Assembly (NCBI RefSeq): GCF_031195445.1
Contig: NZ_CP133480.1
Span: forward strand, 2,968,501-3,032,500
DNA from: Acuticoccus sp. MNP-M23
GTDB taxonomy: Bacteria > Pseudomonadota > Alphaproteobacteria > Rhizobiales > Amorphaceae
Length of the DNA: 64,000 bases
Direction of reading: 5' to 3'
Shown: positions 1 through 7,514 of the stretch, one piece after another
How positions within the stretch are numbered: position 1 is the stretch's first letter
Layout of the letters: each line of letters begins with the position of its first letter
The notes under the pieces: generated by a model
What the model was told of the DNA's origin: nothing
Databases searched by the model: none
What the model saw: the letters and a program-made list of their open reading frames with translations, nothing else
Program-made: the position numbers and the translations under genes

Positions 1-1815
1 GCCGACACAGCACTCGCCGGTGTTGATGCCGATGCCGATGGCAACCGGCTTGTAGATGCCCGCGTGTTCGGCGTTGAAGCGGTCCAGCGCCTGCATCATG
101 TCGAGCGCGGCTTCGGCGGAGTGGGGGGCATGGGCCGGATCGTCGAGCGGCGCATTCCAGAACGCCATGATGGCGTCGCCCATATATTTGTCCACCGTGC
201 CGCGGTGGGAGAGGATCACGTTGGTGAGGGGCGTCAGGAAGGCGTTGATGAAGGTGGTGAGGCCCTGCGCGTCCATTCCTTCCGAGATGGTGGTGAAGCC
301 GCGAATATCGGTGAACAGGAGCGTCATCGACTTGGTCTCGCCGCCAAGGGTCAGCCGCTCGTGGTTGGTGGCAATGTCTTCCACCAGGTCCGAAGCCACG
401 TAGCGGCCGAAGGCGGACCGCACCCACCGCTTTTCCGAGCCTTCGCGGATGGCAACCCAGCTCGTTGTGGCGAGCAGCACCAGCGCCCCGCCCAGCACCG
501 GAAAGGACGGGTCGACCAGGAGCCGCTCGGTGCGAAACAGCGCGTAGCTTGCCCCGACGACGGCGGTGAGAAGGACAATGCCGACGCCGAAGCTCAGCAT
601 CGGCGAAAGGGCCGACGCTGCCACCGCAAAAAGGATGGTGAGGGCGATGAACACCACAATTTCGAGCCCGAGCGACCAGTCCGGCCGCTCAAGGCTGGTG
701 CCGAACACCATATGGTCGATGAGCTGGGCGTGCAGCTCGACCCCCGGCACGGCCTCTTCCAGCGGCGTCGCCTGAATGTCCAGAAGGCCGGGGGCAGTGG
801 CGCCGATCAGGATGATCCGTCCGGCAATCTCGTCCGGGTCCACCGTGCCGCGCACCACGGTCCACGCCGGGATCTGCCGGGCCTCGTCATTTCTGGAAAA
901 ATGCAGCCGGACCGCGCCGTCCGCAGTCGTCGGCACGTCCAGTCCGCCGATGCGCACGGCATTGATGCCGGTTTTCTCGCCGAACGCACTCTGGCCCGAC
1001 GCATTGGACGCGCGCACCACCATGGTGCTGGCGCCTTGCGCAATGCGCAGGGTTTCGCCCGCAAGGCCCGGGATCAAGGTGCCGTCGCCGCCCTGGAACA
1101 GAACCTGGATCTGGCGGACGATCCGGTCCCGGTCCGGCAACCAGTTGAGTGCGGCAAGGCCGGCGCTGGCGCGCTCCAGCGCGGGCAGCGGCAAGGTGGC
1201 GCTCGAAAAGGCGGGGATGAAGGCGCGCGGGTCGTCCCCGGCAAAGGCAAATCCGGTCTTGGCCACCAGAGGCGGCGCGCCGTTTGTCTCGCGCGGGGCC
1301 TTGTCCAGTGAAACGCCCAGCACGGAAGGGGATGCGCCAAGCGCGGCGGCCAGCAGCGTATCGTTGTCGGGCGCGCCATCCAGCGCAGTCAGAAGTGCGT
1401 TGCGCCTGTCTCCCTCTGGCATCAGTTCGGCAATGCTTTCGGGCGACATGCGGTCCGGTTCTGCAAGGATCATGTCGAGGCCGATGGCGGCAGCCCCCAT
1501 GCCGGTCAGCGTGTTGATGATGTCGGCCAACACGGCGCGCGGCCACGGCCATTGCCCAAGCTCGGCGAGGGAGGCTTCGTCGATGGTGACGATGCGCACG
1601 GGGGAGGCGGGATCGTAGGGGCGGGGGTCCAGCCGCTGGTATTCATCGAACACCAGATTGCGCAGGGCGCCGACCGCGGTGCCGTCGTTGACGCGCACCG
1701 TAAGCCCGGCAAACAGCAAGCCGAGCGCAATCAACGCCAGCGGCAGGGCACGGGCGAGCCTGCGCCGCCAGCGCCCGCGAGGTGATTTGCGCTGCGTTGC
1801 GCTCCGATCGAGCAT
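1..1815 (-). CDS. CHASE2-domain adenylate/guanylate cyclase (3' end outside window)
   Basis: Membrane-bound class III nucleotide cyclase making cAMP (or less likely cGMP) in response to a periplasmic signal. The frame is open from an ATG at 1815 to the window edge (605 codons). A basic N-terminus and one TM helix (about residues 20-40) precede a periplasmic CHASE2 sensor region (about 45-375), three closely spaced TM helices (about 380-440) and a cytoplasmic cyclase homology domain. In the cyclase domain the first metal-binding Asp lies in LLFTDIRGFT (about 498-507). The second motif, VDKYMGDAIMAFW (about 540), carries the second metal Asp and the Lys typical of adenylate cyclases. The frame is still inside the domain (INTGECCVG) at base 1, so the last catalytic residues are not visible. 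It is divergent from the TPR/barrel gene and probably linked to it functionally. Family assignment is strong; the signal sensed is unknown. Confidence 0.9.
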   Translation of the reverse strand, partial: MLDRSATQRKSPRGRWRRRLARALPLALIALGLLFAGLTVRVNDGTAVGALRNLVFDEYQRLDPRPYDPASPVRIVTIDEASLAELGQWPWPRAVLADIINTLTGMGAAAIGLDMILAEPDRMSPESIAELMPEGDRRNALLTALDGAPDNDTLLAAALGASPSVLGVSLDKAPRETNGAPPLVAKTGFAFAGDDPRAFIPAFSSATLPLPALERASAGLAALNWLPDRDRIVRQIQVLFQGGDGTLIPGLAGETLRIAQGASTMVVRASNASGQSAFGEKTGINAVRIGGLDVPTTADGAVRLHFSRNDEARQIPAWTVVRGTVDPDEIAGRIILIGATAPGLLDIQATPLEEAVPGVELHAQLIDHMVFGTSLERPDWSLGLEIVVFIALTILFAVAASALSPMLSFGVGIVLLTAVVGASYALFRTERLLVDPSFPVLGGALVLLATTSWVAIREGSEKRWVRSAFGRYVASDLVEDIATNHERLTLGGETKSMTLLFTDIRGFTTISEGMDAQGLTTFINAFLTPLTNVILSHRGTVDKYMGDAIMAFWNAPLDDPAHAPHSAEAALDMMQALDRFNAEHAGIYKPVAIGIGINTGECCVG

Positions 1816-1966
1816 GAATGCCTCCGGTGCGGTCCGCGCCGGCGCGGCGGCACTTTCGCCAATGGTGGCTTTCGCCGGGCGGCGTGTCCAGAGCGCGAGG
1901 ATTGCGGCGGGCCATGTGTTCGCAGGGCAACAGGCGAGCCGAAAGCACACTGCCGGTACGCATCAA

Positions 1967-1984
1967 GGTTGCAGCGAAGCAACC
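1967..1984. promoter_or_regulatory. Inverted repeat in the divergent cyclase / TPR-barrel promoter region
   Basis: A perfect 6-bp dyad (GGTTGC, 6-nt loop AGCGAA, GCAACC) lies in the 230-bp gap between the divergent start codons at 1815 and 2046. It could be an operator for coordinated control or a 5'UTR hairpin of the plus-strand gene. No convincing -35/-10 pair could be fixed in the gap. Functional assignment is speculative. Confidence 0.3.
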
Positions 1985-2045
1985 TCCGTTCCTTAATGCA
2001 TAACGACAGCTGTTTGAGTGAACTCCGGTGAAGTGGCGTCCGTCC

Positions 2046-3422
2046 ATGAACACAACCGCCCTGCGTCAAGGTGTGGTGCTGGCTTGCCTTGCGGTGGCTG
2101 GTTGCGGCTTTGCGGTGTCGGCAAACGCGCAGGGCACGGGCGAGGCTGCCAGCGCCAGCGCATCACAAGCGGTCGAGTCCCGGCGGGACGCGCTGTTCGC
2201 CGCCATGCTGACCGACCCGTCCAATCTCGACATTGCATTCGAGTACGCCACGCTGTCGGCCCAGCTGGGCGACTTTGAGGCTGCCATCGGCACCCTGGAG
2301 CGGATGCTGATCTACGCGCCCAACCTGCCGCGCATCCAGCTCGAACTCGGCGTCCTGTATTACCGGATTGGCGCGACCGAGATGGCGCGAAGCTATCTGG
2401 AGGCCGCCGAGGTAAGCACCGCGCCGCCCGAGGTGCGCGAGCGGGTCGCCACATTCCTGGCGCAGGTGGACCGGCAGGACAGGCGCTTCCTGGTGTCCGG
2501 CACGGCCTATGCCGGGATCCGCTATCAGAGCAACGCCACGGCCGCCCCCGGCGAGGATGTGATTGCCATCAACGGCGTTCCTGTCCGGCTCGACCAGAAC
2601 GCCCGTGCCCAGGCTGACGGCAACCTCTTCGGCCTTGCCGACATCCACATGACCTACGACCTCAAGAATCAGTACGATCTGATCGAGGCCAATCTCGTGA
2701 CCTATGGCAGCGTGTTCTTCGATGTGGAGCGGCTCAACCTCGGTCTGGTGGAGGCGCAGCTCGGGCCGAGCTTCGGTTTCGGGCGCTTCGGCTTTGCCCA
2801 GACGCGCCTCGGGGTCTACGGCATTGCGGGGGCCACCGGGCTCGACCAGGCGCTCTACACGACCACCTATGGCGCGGGCGCCGTGCTGCGCACAGCGTTT
2901 GCCGAGGGCGTGTTGTTCGAAACGCGCAACGAGTTTCGTGCGGCGAACTACAACGACTCGCCGGCCTACCCCACGGTGCGGCTGCAGACCGGGCAGGAAT
3001 ACAGCTCCCTCAACAATCTGACGGTGAGCCTGTCACCGCAGGTGCTGATGCAGACCGTGGTCACGGGCCGCCGGGTGGACGCCCGCGCCGGCTTCAAGAG
3101 CTATGGCGAGCTGGGCGCATCGCTGCGCGGCACCTATTTCTTCTACATGCCCGAGTTTGGCCCGCTGGCGGCGGATGCGCCGTGGAACGCCTCGCTGGCG
3201 GTTGGCGGCCTCCTGCGGCGGTTCGATGATCCGGACGTGCTCATCAATGCCGCAGCGTCGGAAAAGGACGAGGCAGCCTGGATCGAAGCCGGCATTTCGG
3301 CCCCGCTGCAACGCGGCTTTTCTGCCTTCTTCACGGCACAGTACACGCGCCAGTGGTCCAACTACGACACGCGCGACTACGACAATGCGGTCTTCACCTT
3401 CGGTCTTTCAAGGCGGTTCTGA
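2046..3422 (+). CDS. TPR-repeat outer-membrane beta-barrel protein, Slam/type XI secretion-like
   Basis: Probable outer-membrane translocator of 458 aa. I chose the ATG at 2046 because it opens directly into a signal peptide (hydrophobic core, SANAQ near residue 28); an upstream start at 2028 would add six residues. The mature N-terminus (about 45-150) is helical with TPR-like pairs such as LGVLYYRIGATEMARSYLEA. From about residue 155 the sequence becomes alternating, aromatic and glycine-rich, opening with a GIRYQSNAT segment and ending in a terminal Phe (SRRF), as expected of a BAM-assembled barrel. TPR followed by a roughly 300-residue barrel is the Slam (SlipAM/DUF560) layout, and the next gene ends in a Slam-substrate-like barrel. 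A VAGC tetrapeptide at residues 17-20 could be read as a lipobox, which leaves the signal peptide class open. The Slam-like function is inference from architecture and neighbourhood. Confidence 0.72.
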   Translation: MNTTALRQGVVLACLAVAGCGFAVSANAQGTGEAASASASQAVESRRDALFAAMLTDPSNLDIAFEYATLSAQLGDFEAAIGTLERMLIYAPNLPRIQLELGVLYYRIGATEMARSYLEAAEVSTAPPEVRERVATFLAQVDRQDRRFLVSGTAYAGIRYQSNATAAPGEDVIAINGVPVRLDQNARAQADGNLFGLADIHMTYDLKNQYDLIEANLVTYGSVFFDVERLNLGLVEAQLGPSFGFGRFGFAQTRLGVYGIAGATGLDQALYTTTYGAGAVLRTAFAEGVLFETRNEFRAANYNDSPAYPTVRLQTGQEYSSLNNLTVSLSPQVLMQTVVTGRRVDARAGFKSYGELGASLRGTYFFYMPEFGPLAADAPWNASLAVGGLLRRFDDPDVLINAAASEKDEAAWIEAGISAPLQRGFSAFFTAQYTRQWSNYDTRDYDNAVFTFGLSRRF

Positions 3423-3425
3423 GCC

Positions 3426-6320
3426 ATGGCCAAGCGCATCCTTCAGGCGGCCACGGCCGTTGCCCTCTCGCTCCTGACGGGCGAGGCGGCGCTGGCGCAG
3501 GCGAGGGTGGGTGTGACCGCCGCCGTCAACCCGCAGTCCGACTTCGACCGCAGCGGCGGGGTTCGCACGGTCGTGATCGGCGACGAAGTGTTGTTCAAGG
3601 ACCGGATCGTCACCGGGGATGACGGGCTGGTTCAGGTGCTGTTCGTGGACGGGTCCAACTTCACGGTCGGGCCGGGGGCACGGGTGGTGATTGACGAGTT
3701 CGTCTACAACCCGTCCACCGGGTCCGGCTCGCTGGTGGCCGAGGTGACCAGCGGCGCGTTGCGCTTTGTGGGCGGCAAGCTGTCCAAGCGGGACAATCAG
3801 GTGCGGTTCCGCACGCCGGGCGGCACCCTTGGCGTGCGCGGCGGCATCACCAATGTCGACCTTTCGCCAGGTTGCCTGCCCGATGGCAGCTGCCCCACCG
3901 CCACCGCCTCGCTGGTGTTCGGCGACGCGCTGGTGCTGGCTCTGCCCGGCGGCGGCACGCGCCGGGTGGACACGCCGGGCTATTCCTTCGCGATTTTCGG
4001 TACCGGGGCGCGGGCGCGGGCCGACATTGTGCCCACCGCGCGGCTTGACCTGTCCAGCCTGCAGCAGCGGCTTGCCGGCAAGCCCGACCGCAGCGGCGGC
4101 AGCCGTAATATCCCCACCGATGCGAACGTCACGCAAAGCGGCGTATCCGCCCTCAACTCCGCGCGCGCGCCCTTCACGGTCCTGCCGCGGCCGCGCCCCG
4201 TCGTCGCGACATCACGCTACGCGCCGAACGCGACCTCGCCCGGTATCGCCACCACCACCAACCTTATTGACGTGACGGTGATGCAGCCTGCAGACAGCGA
4301 TGCCGTGACGGACGACGTGGTGACGAACCGTCCGCCCAGGCCGCAACCGCCCAAGCCGCGACCGCCCGAGCCGCCGCTGCCGCCCGAGCCGGCCGCCGTG
4401 GATCGCCGCGTTGCCGCATTCGCGACGCCGCCGCGCTTCGATACCGCGGACGGGCAGATCATCCGCGAGCCGGGCGCTGTGGGCATCGTCACCGCCCTGG
4501 ACCTTGCGCCCTACGGTGCTGCCCTGATCGAAAACGACCGTGGCCGCGTGGTGGCGCTGCAAATCGGGGCCGACACGCTGCCATTCCCCGCCGCAACGGG
4601 GGAAACGCGGATCAACCGCTTCCGCTCGCAAACGCTTGGGCGTCAGGTGGAAGGCACGGTCTACCGCGGGGCAGACAATTTCGCGCTTTACACGCTGCAG
4701 CAGGCAGGCGGCCCGGCAAAGGCCAAGCAGGTCGCCTATTTCCTGACCGGGGAGACCACACGGCCCGAAGTGATGCTCTCCGGCGACGGGGCACCCCTGA
4801 CCGTGCGCCGCTACAGCCTGACAGACGACTACCAGAAGCGTGCCCGCGGCATCCGCTCAGAGCTGCACCTTCTCAATCCGCTGATTGCGCGCGAATTCGG
4901 CGCCTCGCTCGCCGATGCCGCCGAAACCCGTTTCCACATCGTCCAGAACAGCGTCGACCCGACGGTGGCCGGAACGCTTTATGGCGGCCTGCTGATTGAC
5001 GGGACGGGCCCGAACCAGCGCTCCGCCATCAATGTGGACACCGGCTTCGTCGCGACCAACCCCGACGGCGGGGTGGTTGTGGTGGGCCAGCGGCGCGGCT
5101 CCACCAGGACGCAGGCGCTCCTTGCCGCCAGCACCCTGTCCGGCGCCACAGGCTCCCGGCCAACCGGCGCCCGAAGCGGCGGCACTGTGTTCGGCGCAGA
5201 CGGAGACAATTTTGTCTACACCTCGGGTGCCAGCGTGCGGCCGCTCAGCGAGGGCAGGTCCCGCCTGTTCGTCGACAATCAGCGCACCGGCAAGCCGCTG
5301 CTGCCGTCCGAGCGCCGCAGCATGACCACCCAGGTGGCGACGCTGGAAGAGACCATTGCCGCTGGCGCCCTGTCGCGCTCCACCCGTTCGATCACAGGCT
5401 TTGCGGCCGGCATGATCGAGCCCAACGGACGCGACGCCATCGCCTTCCGCTCCACTGATGCCGGAGACGTACGGATCGACTTCAACGCGCCGGGCAGCAC
5501 CTTGGGCGGTGTGTTCGGGATCGAGGACATCGACGATCAGGACCCCGTGGTGCGCAGCTTCAGGCTCGCATTCGGCACCGACATTTTCGGCGGGGCCTCC
5601 TCCCGCGCGCGCAGCACCTACGTGGACGACGACATGTTTGCCGGCGTTGCCACCGGCCCCGTCAACGAGCCCGGCAGCCCGCAGACAACGCTCACCACCG
5701 ACGATGGCGCCACAATCACCCACAGCCGTTCGACGCCGGGCACCTACATGATTTCAGCCGATGCGGTTCCCCAGCCGGCACTGTTCGAGAATGCCGGTGT
5801 GACGCCATGCGACTGCCGGTTCATGGAATGGGGCTGGTGGGGCACGTCCACCGAATTCGAGGGGGAGGGTCTGCCCCCCGGCCGCAACGACGTTGCGCAT
5901 CTGGGAACGTGGGTGGCCGGCGACATCACGCCCGATGCCGAACTGCCGACGACCGGCACCGGCAGCTACGCCGGCCACGCCGTGGGCACCGTGGTGGCCA
6001 ACCAGCCGGGCGCCGGCAAGGCGCGCTACGTCGCCGCCGGTCAGCTGAGAGTGAACTACGATTTCGGCAGCCGCTCCGGCGACCTTGCCATCACCAAGTT
6101 TGACGGCAGAAGCTTCGGCGGCCGTATTTCCGGCGGCGTCGGACGCAACGGCGTGCGGAACCGCTTCGGCGGCAACCTCACCGGCAAGGGGCTGACGGGA
6201 TCGGTGGACGGCGCCTTCGCCCGCGGGCCGAAGGGCTCTGCGCAGGGCGTTCTGGGCGCATTCAACGTGCGCGGATCGGGCTACCGTGCCACGGGCAATT
6301 TCCTGGGTGAACGTCGCTAG
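3426..6320 (+). CDS. Large secreted FecR-domain protein with TbpB-like C-terminal barrel
   Basis: Exported 964-aa protein starting 3 nt after the barrel gene stop. A signal peptide (cleavage near AQA, residue 25) leads into a FecR domain (about 45-145: GDEVLFKDRIVTGDDG, then the GGTLGVRGGI turn). A Pro-rich linker (about 299-325, repeated PPxP/KPRPPEP) separates it from a long central region without a recognised domain. Near residue 792 is a short CDC-x4-WGWW motif. The last 130 or so residues form a glycine-rich, alternating beta region (GSYAGHAVGT, VNYDFGSRSGDL, FGGNLTGKGLTGSVDGAF) ending AxGNFLGERR. This pattern resembles the C-terminal barrel of TbpB-type surface proteins that Slam proteins export. 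Unlike classical FecR there is no anti-sigma TM segment or sigma factor nearby. The FecR domain is clear; the TbpB-like reading is inference. Confidence 0.75.
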   Translation: MAKRILQAATAVALSLLTGEAALAQARVGVTAAVNPQSDFDRSGGVRTVVIGDEVLFKDRIVTGDDGLVQVLFVDGSNFTVGPGARVVIDEFVYNPSTGSGSLVAEVTSGALRFVGGKLSKRDNQVRFRTPGGTLGVRGGITNVDLSPGCLPDGSCPTATASLVFGDALVLALPGGGTRRVDTPGYSFAIFGTGARARADIVPTARLDLSSLQQRLAGKPDRSGGSRNIPTDANVTQSGVSALNSARAPFTVLPRPRPVVATSRYAPNATSPGIATTTNLIDVTVMQPADSDAVTDDVVTNRPPRPQPPKPRPPEPPLPPEPAAVDRRVAAFATPPRFDTADGQIIREPGAVGIVTALDLAPYGAALIENDRGRVVALQIGADTLPFPAATGETRINRFRSQTLGRQVEGTVYRGADNFALYTLQQAGGPAKAKQVAYFLTGETTRPEVMLSGDGAPLTVRRYSLTDDYQKRARGIRSELHLLNPLIAREFGASLADAAETRFHIVQNSVDPTVAGTLYGGLLIDGTGPNQRSAINVDTGFVATNPDGGVVVVGQRRGSTRTQALLAASTLSGATGSRPTGARSGGTVFGADGDNFVYTSGASVRPLSEGRSRLFVDNQRTGKPLLPSERRSMTTQVATLEETIAAGALSRSTRSITGFAAGMIEPNGRDAIAFRSTDAGDVRIDFNAPGSTLGGVFGIEDIDDQDPVVRSFRLAFGTDIFGGASSRARSTYVDDDMFAGVATGPVNEPGSPQTTLTTDDGATITHSRSTPGTYMISADAVPQPALFENAGVTPCDCRFMEWGWWGTSTEFEGEGLPPGRNDVAHLGTWVAGDITPDAELPTTGTGSYAGHAVGTVVANQPGAGKARYVAAGQLRVNYDFGSRSGDLAITKFDGRSFGGRISGGVGRNGVRNRFGGNLTGKGLTGSVDGAFARGPKGSAQGVLGAFNVRGSGYRATGNFLGERR

Positions 6321-6425
6321 AGCTGGTGGCCGCGCAAGGTTCACAGAAAATCCGGCCGTCAATCGCTTGAAACATCATGCCCGGCGCGCCATTCGTTGCG
6401 CTCACTCGGGATAAAGGACGTTTCA

Positions 6426-7514
6426 ATGCGATCAGCGTTACTGGCGGCATTCGCGATCATGAGCTTCACACCGGCGGCGCTGGGGTGCACGGCGGTCAAC
6501 ATCGTCGCCACGGACGGGACCGTCGTTGCGGCCCGTTCCATGGAATGGGCGCTTCCCATGGAGTGGACCGCCGTCACCATCCCCGTCGGAAACAAGTACG
6601 ACATGACCGCGCCCGAGGGCTCCGGTCTGAAGCCGGTGGCCATGGAAACCAGCCACGCGATCTTCGGCATCAAGACCGCGCTCGTTCCGGGCAACTTCCT
6701 GGTCGACGCGCAGAACGACGCCGGCCTCACCTTCAGCGCCAACTTCCTGCCGGGCTTCACCCAGTACCAGGACGTTGCGGCGGACGACAAAGGCTACGTC
6801 GGGTTGCCGGACTTCGGGGTCTGGTCGCTGGGTCAGTTCGGCTCGGTCGCCGAACTTCAGGCTGCGCTGCCGGACGTGAAGGTCTGGTACAGCGGCGAGA
6901 AGATCCAGGGTGTCGTGCCGGACGTGCACTTCGTCTTCACCGACAGCACGGGCGACAGCATTGTCGTCGAATTCGTCGGCGGCGAGCAGCAGATCAGCAA
7001 GAATGTTTCGCGGGTGCTGACCAACGCGCCGACCTACGACTGGCACCTCAACAACCTGCGCAACTATCTCGACCTGTCACCCGACGGCGATGGCGCGGTG
7101 GAGATCGGCGGCACCAACGTGACTGCGCTCGGCCAGGGTGGCGGTCTGCGCGGCGTCCCGGCTGACTACACGCCCCCCTCGCGCTTCGTGAAGGCTGCTT
7201 ACCTCACCCACTTCGCCTATGACCCCAAGGATGCCGCGGAGGCCATTTCGCTCGGCAACCACATCCTCAACACGGTGGATATTCCCGAAGGCGTGGTGCG
7301 CAGCCAGGAAGACGGCAAGACGGTTGCCGACTACACCCAGTGGGTCGTGATGAAGGATCTGAACAACAACACGCTGACCATTGCGGACTATGACAACCGC
7401 GCCAACGCGCTGACCATCGACCTGAAGGCGCTGTTCAAGTCGGGCGAAGCGGTGGATACGCTTGTCACCGACCTGCCCTTTCCGGGCCGGACGGCGGTGA
7501 CGACGCTGAACTGA
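6426..7514 (+). CDS. Exported linear amide C-N hydrolase (choloylglycine hydrolase family, Ntn)
   Basis: Probable periplasmic Ntn-type amidase of 362 aa, in the family of bile-salt hydrolase, penicillin V acylase and acyl-homoserine-lactone acylases. The ATG at 6426 follows an AAAGGAC ribosome binding site. A 20-residue signal peptide ends AALG, and the next residue is Cys21 in CTAVNIV, the expected nucleophile that must become the free N-terminus. Family-typical segments follow: ARSMEWA with the catalytic-region Arg (about 36), DAQNDAGLTFSANF (about 96-110) and a late conserved NLRNYLDLSPDGD stretch. Substrate cannot be read from sequence. It stands alone between the FecR protein and a convergent gene and shares their strand, so a link to that cluster is possible but unproven. 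Confidence 0.85.
   Translation: MRSALLAAFAIMSFTPAALGCTAVNIVATDGTVVAARSMEWALPMEWTAVTIPVGNKYDMTAPEGSGLKPVAMETSHAIFGIKTALVPGNFLVDAQNDAGLTFSANFLPGFTQYQDVAADDKGYVGLPDFGVWSLGQFGSVAELQAALPDVKVWYSGEKIQGVVPDVHFVFTDSTGDSIVVEFVGGEQQISKNVSRVLTNAPTYDWHLNNLRNYLDLSPDGDGAVEIGGTNVTALGQGGGLRGVPADYTPPSRFVKAAYLTHFAYDPKDAAEAISLGNHILNTVDIPEGVVRSQEDGKTVADYTQWVVMKDLNNNTLTIADYDNRANALTIDLKALFKSGEAVDTLVTDLPFPGRTAVTTLN

Follow-up and report, generated by a model that had tools for sequence, protein, structure and literature searches.

A Slam-like TPR/barrel protein, a FecR protein with a Slam-client-like C-terminal lobe and a CHASE2 cyclase form a recurrent three-gene unit in Acuticoccus and its relatives

What is known of type XI secretion comes mostly from bacteria that live with animals, where the clients bind nutrients or the host. 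The clients of this Slam (DUF560, T11SS) pathway include TbpB, fHbp, NHBA, HpuA and haemophilin, and the main texts of two surveys of the system (PMC8406197, PMC12282271) make no mention of FecR or of a cyclase. Signalling that combines a FecR domain with a CHASE2 sensor enzyme is also known. In S. meliloti, NsrA and CyaK are both needed for a protein signal from outside to raise cAMP-dependent expression (PMC7529298; PMC13001267). The pSymB record gives NsrA as one chain of 1190 aa, with a FecR domain at 66-160, TPRs at about 240-590 and a barrel, encoded by a gene that overlaps cyaK by 1 nt. A FecR-CHASE2 pairing has been reported for the CHASE2-cyclase clusters of Campylobacterota (PMC9239204), and the Burkholderia BiofilmReg operon (PMC5192318) encodes a LysM-FecR protein together with a CHASE2 histidine kinase.

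Here we describe a unit that joins these two kinds of system. It lies at the left end of the window, the 64,000-nucleotide stretch of DNA that was analysed (positions 2,968,501-3,032,500 of contig NZ_CP133480.1, Acuticoccus sp. MNP-M23, GCF_031195445.1). Its features, in window coordinates, are the following.

1..1815, minus strand: first 605 of the 753 aa of a class III nucleotide cyclase with a CHASE2 domain, crossing the left edge (Pfam, ORF)
634..1692, minus strand: CHASE2 periplasmic sensor domain, residues 42-394 (Pfam, 180.6 bits)
1816..2045, no strand: intergenic region separating the divergent cyclase and TPR-barrel genes (ORF bounds)
2046..3422, plus strand: complete gene of a 458-aa Slam-like outer-membrane protein with TPRs and a 14-strand beta-barrel (profiles, model)
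2160..2483, plus strand: periplasmic TPR domain, residues 39-146 (Pfam TPR_9/TPR_19, model)
2487..3419, plus strand: 14-strand barrel, residues 148-458, homologue of SlipAM barrels (model, hhalign)
3426..6320, plus strand: FecR/Slam-client-like protein, 964 aa, signal peptide without lipobox, whole gene
3504..4094, plus strand: FecR domain, residues 27-223 (PF04773 at 28.4 bits, PupR fold)
4140..4400, plus strand: Pro-rich disordered linker, residues 239-325 (pLDDT, Pro content)
4404..5372, plus strand: beta-rich middle domain, residues 327-649 (model; missing from short relatives)
5373..6317, plus strand: TbpB/fHbp/NHBA-type C-lobe, residues 650-964, with the barrel module at 792-964 (fold and profiles)

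The ORF coordinates agree with the gene layout of the initial annotation, in which the cyclase is divergent from the TPR-barrel gene and the latter is followed by the 964-aa FecR gene after a gap of 3 nt. The TPR-barrel gene runs from ATG 2046 to the stop at 3422, with GTG 2028 as an alternative start. The cyclase gene starts at ATG 1815 on the minus strand and ends about 446 bases beyond the left edge of the window (stop at L002:7554; full-length 753-aa gene at L002:7554-9815). Reading and Pfam searches of the ORFs flanking the unit point to a biotin carboxylase and a choloylglycine hydrolase, the latter a family member at 6396-7514, directly downstream of the FecR gene, with 172 bits in Pfam. 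The intergenic region contains a perfect inverted repeat, AGGTTGC-N6-GCAACCT (1966-1985). No counterpart of this repeat was found in the divergent promoter region among congeners, and a shared operator was rejected on this ground.

Pfam assigns 180.6 bits to CHASE2 and 89.3 bits to Guanylate_cyc in the cyclase, whose class III domain spans residues 494-668. The catalytic residues are all intact, with D503 and D547 for the metals, K543 for the purine, and N623 and R627. Ser616 occupies the second purine position, which it also does in 37 of 40 relatives, and we take the K543/S616 pair to be the pattern usually called class IIIb. The product is probably cAMP. The genome holds nine class III cyclases, and the one in the window is its sole CHASE2 protein.

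The second gene product had been called Slam-like, with a search against SlipAM (PF04575) proposed as the check. The outcome of this search was divided: the protein itself gave no match at E<=1, and Pfam recognised only TPR models (TPR_9/TPR_19) in it, while 14 of 42 members of its family matched SlipAM (best E-value 1.9e-6) and 14 of 42 matched TPR_Slam. No PF04575 protein was found in a search of the whole source genome. The family profile was therefore compared by hhalign with four SlipAM proteins of the same order using the barrels alone, because the TPRs could otherwise drive the result. The two sets of barrels align across the whole barrel with a probability of 99.2% and an E-value of 1.9e-19. 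As controls, the FadL family, which also has 14 strands, and the NsrA barrel reach 0.1% and 0.3%, respectively; a plain porin or FadL-type barrel and an NsrA-type barrel were rejected on these values.

The AlphaFold2 model of the protein displays a TPR domain and a barrel of 14 long strands with a pLDDT of 91, the architecture of a type XI outer-membrane protein, and its best fold matches on re-alignment are the 14-strand barrels CymA, OmpG and FadL. Since no solved Slam structure is recognisable in the fold-match lists, the fold search is neutral on Slam and the case rests on the sequence profiles. Polysaccharide secretins (PgaA, BcsC, PelB), which also combine TPRs with a barrel, were considered as well; Foldseek ranks BcsC first, yet the 14-strand barrels come out on top after re-alignment, and the candidate was rejected. 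The PgaA NCBIfam model matches weakly and in the TPR part only. By profile comparison, the TPR-barrel protein is thus a distant Slam homologue outside the PF04575 membership, and the Slam-like assignment stands on both homology and predicted fold.

The FecR protein is modelled with an overall pLDDT of 84. Its FecR domain scores 28.4 bits against PF04773 (cut-off 24), begins at residue 27 straight after the N-terminal signal sequence, and superimposes on the cell-surface signalling domain of PupR (6ovk, Z 14.4, 3.0 Å over 137 residues) and on the anti-sigma protein 4m0n (Z 14.2). The fold is therefore shared with FecIR and PupIR, whereas the 964-aa protein has neither an anti-sigma cytoplasmic domain nor a membrane anchor ahead of the FecR domain, and no sigma factor or TonB receptor was seen among the ORFs flanking its gene. 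The FecR domain also resembles the surface-anchoring domain of an RTX adhesin (5ix9; phmmer E 2.6e-4, TM 0.73 of target), a hint at kinship between FecR and the retention modules of adhesins. The linker that follows has pLDDT values below 50 over residues 239-305. At least 6 Pro per 25 aa are found in the linker of 50 of 73 relatives, against a median of 3 in the other domains, and both its length and its Pro content vary widely among relatives. A second C-lobe copy in the middle domain was rejected, there being no sequence support for it (hhalign 0.5%).

For the C-terminus, the initial annotation had proposed a likeness to Slam clients and a search against TbpB_B_D (PF01298). The window's protein does not match this model, which is matched by 15 of 45 relatives; FHBP_C is matched by 29 of 45. 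Residues 828-931 match the NCBIfam model slam_lipo with an E-value of 2.2e-5 and 24.8 bits, under its 80-bit cut-off. A profile of 45 relatives run against all PDB chains retrieves fHbp (3.9e-5) and NHBA (7.6e-4), and at E < 0.002 these two are joined only by 5ix9, at the FecR part. The predicted structure contains the expected C-terminal TbpB-type lobe with an 8-strand barrel: residues 655-964 match the TbpB C-lobe (5kkx, Z 14.1), NHBA (6cuj, Z 13.0), fHbp (Z about 12-13) and HpuA (Z 12.2), and the first 18 rows of a Foldseek search are all TbpB or LbpB. As the independent routes of sequence and fold agree, the C-terminus can be placed with the Slam clients. The lobe is a separable module, being present in versions of 555-678 aa with little or none of the middle domain.

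Compared to the described systems, the unit shares with type XI secretion a TPR and 14-strand barrel protein encoded beside a protein with a TbpB-type lobe. It differs in that the barrel falls outside the PF04575-defined set and that the client has a FecR domain, no lipobox and a tie to a cyclase. With NsrA-CyaK it has in common that FecR, TPRs, an outer-membrane barrel and a CHASE2 cyclase are encoded together; CyaK is 34% identical to the window cyclase over 719 aa, and the two FecR domains are related at E 6e-7. In contrast, NsrA is a single chain with an unrelated barrel and no Slam-client lobe, whereas the window encodes FecR and a Slam-like barrel as two proteins. The trio reads as a split counterpart of NsrA-CyaK with a different barrel, in which the modules can be deleted singly. 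The Campylobacterota clusters likewise combine a CHASE2 cyclase with a FecR-domain outer-membrane protein and a TPR protein, but include a phosphodiesterase gene (PMC9239204); none was recognised at the window by reading the neighbouring ORFs. The BiofilmReg operon similarly pairs a FecR protein with a CHASE2 sensor enzyme, although this enzyme is a kinase rather than a cyclase, the FecR protein has LysM instead of a client lobe and, as far as the available part of its description goes (PMC5192318), no TPR-barrel is among the operon parts. The earlier view that a FecR domain tied to a cyclase, with neither sigma factor nor TonB receptor, makes a new circuit must therefore give way to these precedents from S. 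meliloti, Campylobacterota and Burkholderia. Each part of the unit is known, as is FecR-CHASE2 signalling; what appears new is the combination of this signalling with a Slam-like translocator and with the fold of Slam clients. We found no description of this combination in a literature search covering mainly open-access papers, a weak negative given that subscription papers and preprints lay mostly outside it.

To assess conservation, 84,980 species genomes were searched with the barrel family only, which gave 226 relatives, and the best 80 of these, the closest relatives, were taken with 9-kb flanks. The search made no use of the neighbours, so counting them gives a fair picture for these 80 loci. 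Within 200 nt, the next gene carries a FecR domain and a C-lobe at 67 of the 76 loci with enough sequence. The cyclase is present at 35 of the 69 complete loci, being co-directional and downstream in 31 cases, divergent in three and upstream in one. In the window's own genus, the FecR protein occurs in 6 of 8 genomes, and five of these six have the cyclase beside it in the divergent arrangement of the window; in the sixth (G410) no cyclase lies within 5 kb of the FecR gene. The co-occurrence that had been anticipated for the three genes is thus strong, and none of the outcomes set beforehand as counting against the annotation (another C-terminal fold, an unrelated porin family, no co-occurrence) was found.

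The 34 complete loci without a cyclase would fit a reading in which only the barrel and the FecR protein belong together and the cyclase is an unrelated neighbour. We regard this as very improbable, given that cyclase linkage needs 6 changes on the barrel tree against a mean of 25 with shuffled labels, is found in both deep clades of this tree, recurs with several gene orders in further families of Alphaproteobacteria, and that FecR is often found next to CHASE2 in the order. A chance neighbourhood was rejected on the conserved neighbour counts, the recurrence in distant relatives and the tree test. A linked cyclase is absent from all Stappiaceae loci sampled. At 24 cyclase-less loci, mostly of Stappiaceae, there is a gene resembling a putative periplasmic 5'-nucleotidase, named by motif, that lies directly upstream of the TPR-barrel gene in L131 (L131, L134, L135, L137-L143, L145-L149, L151, L155, L157, L159, L160, L166, L167, L170 and L175).

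Gene content varies around this arrangement. At the Hyphomicrobiaceae-type loci (L171, L174, L180, L100-L102), two or three FecR genes, whose products differ in length, come after a single TPR-barrel gene. The short products keep the FecR domain and the C-lobe and lack the middle domain, and one barrel gene can have two or three FecR/C-lobe proteins as partners. In another class of the phylum, a stretch (L246, genome G327) has two TPR-barrel genes beside three FecR proteins (561, 1152 and 276 aa), and no CHASE2 cyclase is found within it. Outside the subfamily, L106-L110, L244, L249 and L250 encode a barrel, a FecR protein and a cyclase, the FecR protein being only 265-460 aa long and having no C-lobe. 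The barrels of L106-L110 are Slam-like as well (96.8% in hhalign). In the group with barrels of 441-455 aa, no C-lobe was found in the FecR partners, whose tails are Gly/Pro-rich. Because these relatives keep the trio, the conserved core is a TPR-barrel, a FecR protein and a CHASE2 cyclase, with the client lobe as an elaboration. Moreover, since the barrel gene is retained where the lobe is missing, export is not the common denominator and a pure exporter role is doubtful. The barrel's conserved role is probably to act as a docking site or receptor for FecR, and any export would be an addition in the window's subfamily.

Extended to the window, these relatives would suit a receptor that works by docking only: the TPR-barrel would be the ligand receptor, as the barrel part of NsrA is, and the FecR protein would stay wholly periplasmic, with its C-lobe bound to the barrel from the periplasmic side, and relay the state of the barrel to CHASE2. 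NsrA, which joins FecR, TPRs and barrel in one chain, agrees with this. We nevertheless hold it unlikely for the window, if with an appreciable chance, as the subfamily's C-lobe is folded like the surface proteins exported by Slam and a long Pro-rich linker is hard to explain in a fully periplasmic adaptor.

The reading we prefer, and to which we give about an even chance, is a trans-envelope signalling unit in which the C-lobe passes through the barrel or docks in it, so as to face the outside, and the FecR domain remains periplasmic and gates the cyclase. The FecR protein would reach the periplasm via its signal peptide, and the TPR-barrel, as a Slam-like outer-membrane protein, would bring the C-terminal TbpB-type lobe, perhaps with the middle domain, as far as the outer membrane or across it. 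The FecR domain would fold and stay in the periplasm, with the Pro-rich linker tethering it to the outer part; this placement is proposed on account of its periplasmic signalling fold, its likeness to an RTX-adhesin anchoring domain and the extended linker behind it. The FecR domain would pass an outside event, which may be a ligand on the lobe or the barrel or the loading of the barrel, on to the CHASE2 domain that the inner-membrane cyclase exposes in the periplasm, thereby changing cAMP synthesis. Export or docking, the direction of the signal and the contact between FecR and CHASE2 are what we infer from the sequences and predicted models. Against this mechanism stand the individual misses of the window's barrel and C-lobe with PF04575 and PF01298, the distant relatives that do without a C-lobe, the variable linker, the lack of a cyclic-nucleotide-binding gene in the window, and the roughly half of the loci that have no linked cyclase.

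The same signal peptide, for which a simple pattern search finds no lipobox in 72 of 75 relatives, could also be that of a soluble type XI client released outside in the manner of haemophilin, the cyclase then controlling or following its expression. Soluble T11SS clients likewise have no lipobox (PMC8406197), and the linked cyclase is missing at half of the loci. This plain secretion is nonetheless improbable in our view: a FecR domain of PupR signalling fold has no evident use outside, and FecR-CHASE2 linkage occurs without any client lobe, which makes the FecR-cyclase link the older one. Decidedly improbable, too, is an export checkpoint, in which FecR protein awaiting export in the periplasm keeps the cyclase in one state, export through the barrel switches it, and cAMP reports the activity of the translocon. 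The anatomy of the unit would fit such a device equally, as would the loci where several FecR/C-lobe proteins go with a single barrel; yet it demands that the FecR domain leave the periplasm, and it leaves the C-lobe-less units unexplained.

The neighbourhoods of relatives point to possible outputs of the preferred trans-envelope unit. Among loci of at least 15 kb, a gene for a cyclic-nucleotide-binding protein is found at 18 of 34 cyclase-bearing loci and at 0 of 35 cyclase-less loci, where the 18 do not amount to 18 independent events, since cyclase-bearing loci were the seed of the profile and the majority of matches fall in one clade, that of SulP-STAS-cNMP fusions. The partners are of differing kind (SulP-STAS-cNMP, cNMP-SpoIIE, glutaminase-STAS-cNMP, POPDC-cNMP, cNMP-patatin, and stand-alone cNMP proteins in NHLP peptide-export operons), and this diversity, seen in gene content, supports a cyclic nucleotide as the real output of the cyclase-bearing units. 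In the 64-kb window no cyclic-nucleotide-binding gene was found, and a local effector of this type was rejected there.

The recurrence of the trio in many relatives suggests a new kind of outside-to-inside cAMP receptor. In the broader form of this proposal, which we put forward tentatively and with somewhat less than an even chance, a branch of the Slam/type XI family would serve as the outer half of a second-messenger receptor, with a client carrying a FecR transducer threaded through or docked in the barrel, a CHASE2 cyclase inside and, in many relatives, local cNMP effectors. A unit made of a Slam-like barrel, a client that has a signalling domain at its other end, and a cyclase whose activity is easily read out renders testable both the input of CHASE2 and the route from an outer-membrane event to CHASE2, and the cNMP-binding neighbours are a guide to the outputs.

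Several of these neighbours are worth recording individually. Fusions of a SulP anion transporter with STAS and cNMP-binding domains lie near the cyclase unit at 19 loci, all with the cyclase and none without, sometimes in two copies (L163, L172, L173, L176-L178, L184, L186, L187, L189, L191-L196, L198 and L199). In a Devosia locus (L152), a glutaminase-STAS-cNMP protein (L152:1300-3153) and a POPDC-like cNMP protein (L152:519-1283) adjoin the unit. Export genes for NHLP-type peptides (RiPPs) occur near the CHASE2 cyclase unit in Shinella p1 (L186/L113/L251), L173, L176, L191, L199 and Ensifer PDNC004 (L252), and the Shinella p1 and Ensifer PDNC004 neighbourhoods also encode a stand-alone cNMP-binding protein and a Nif11-like precursor.
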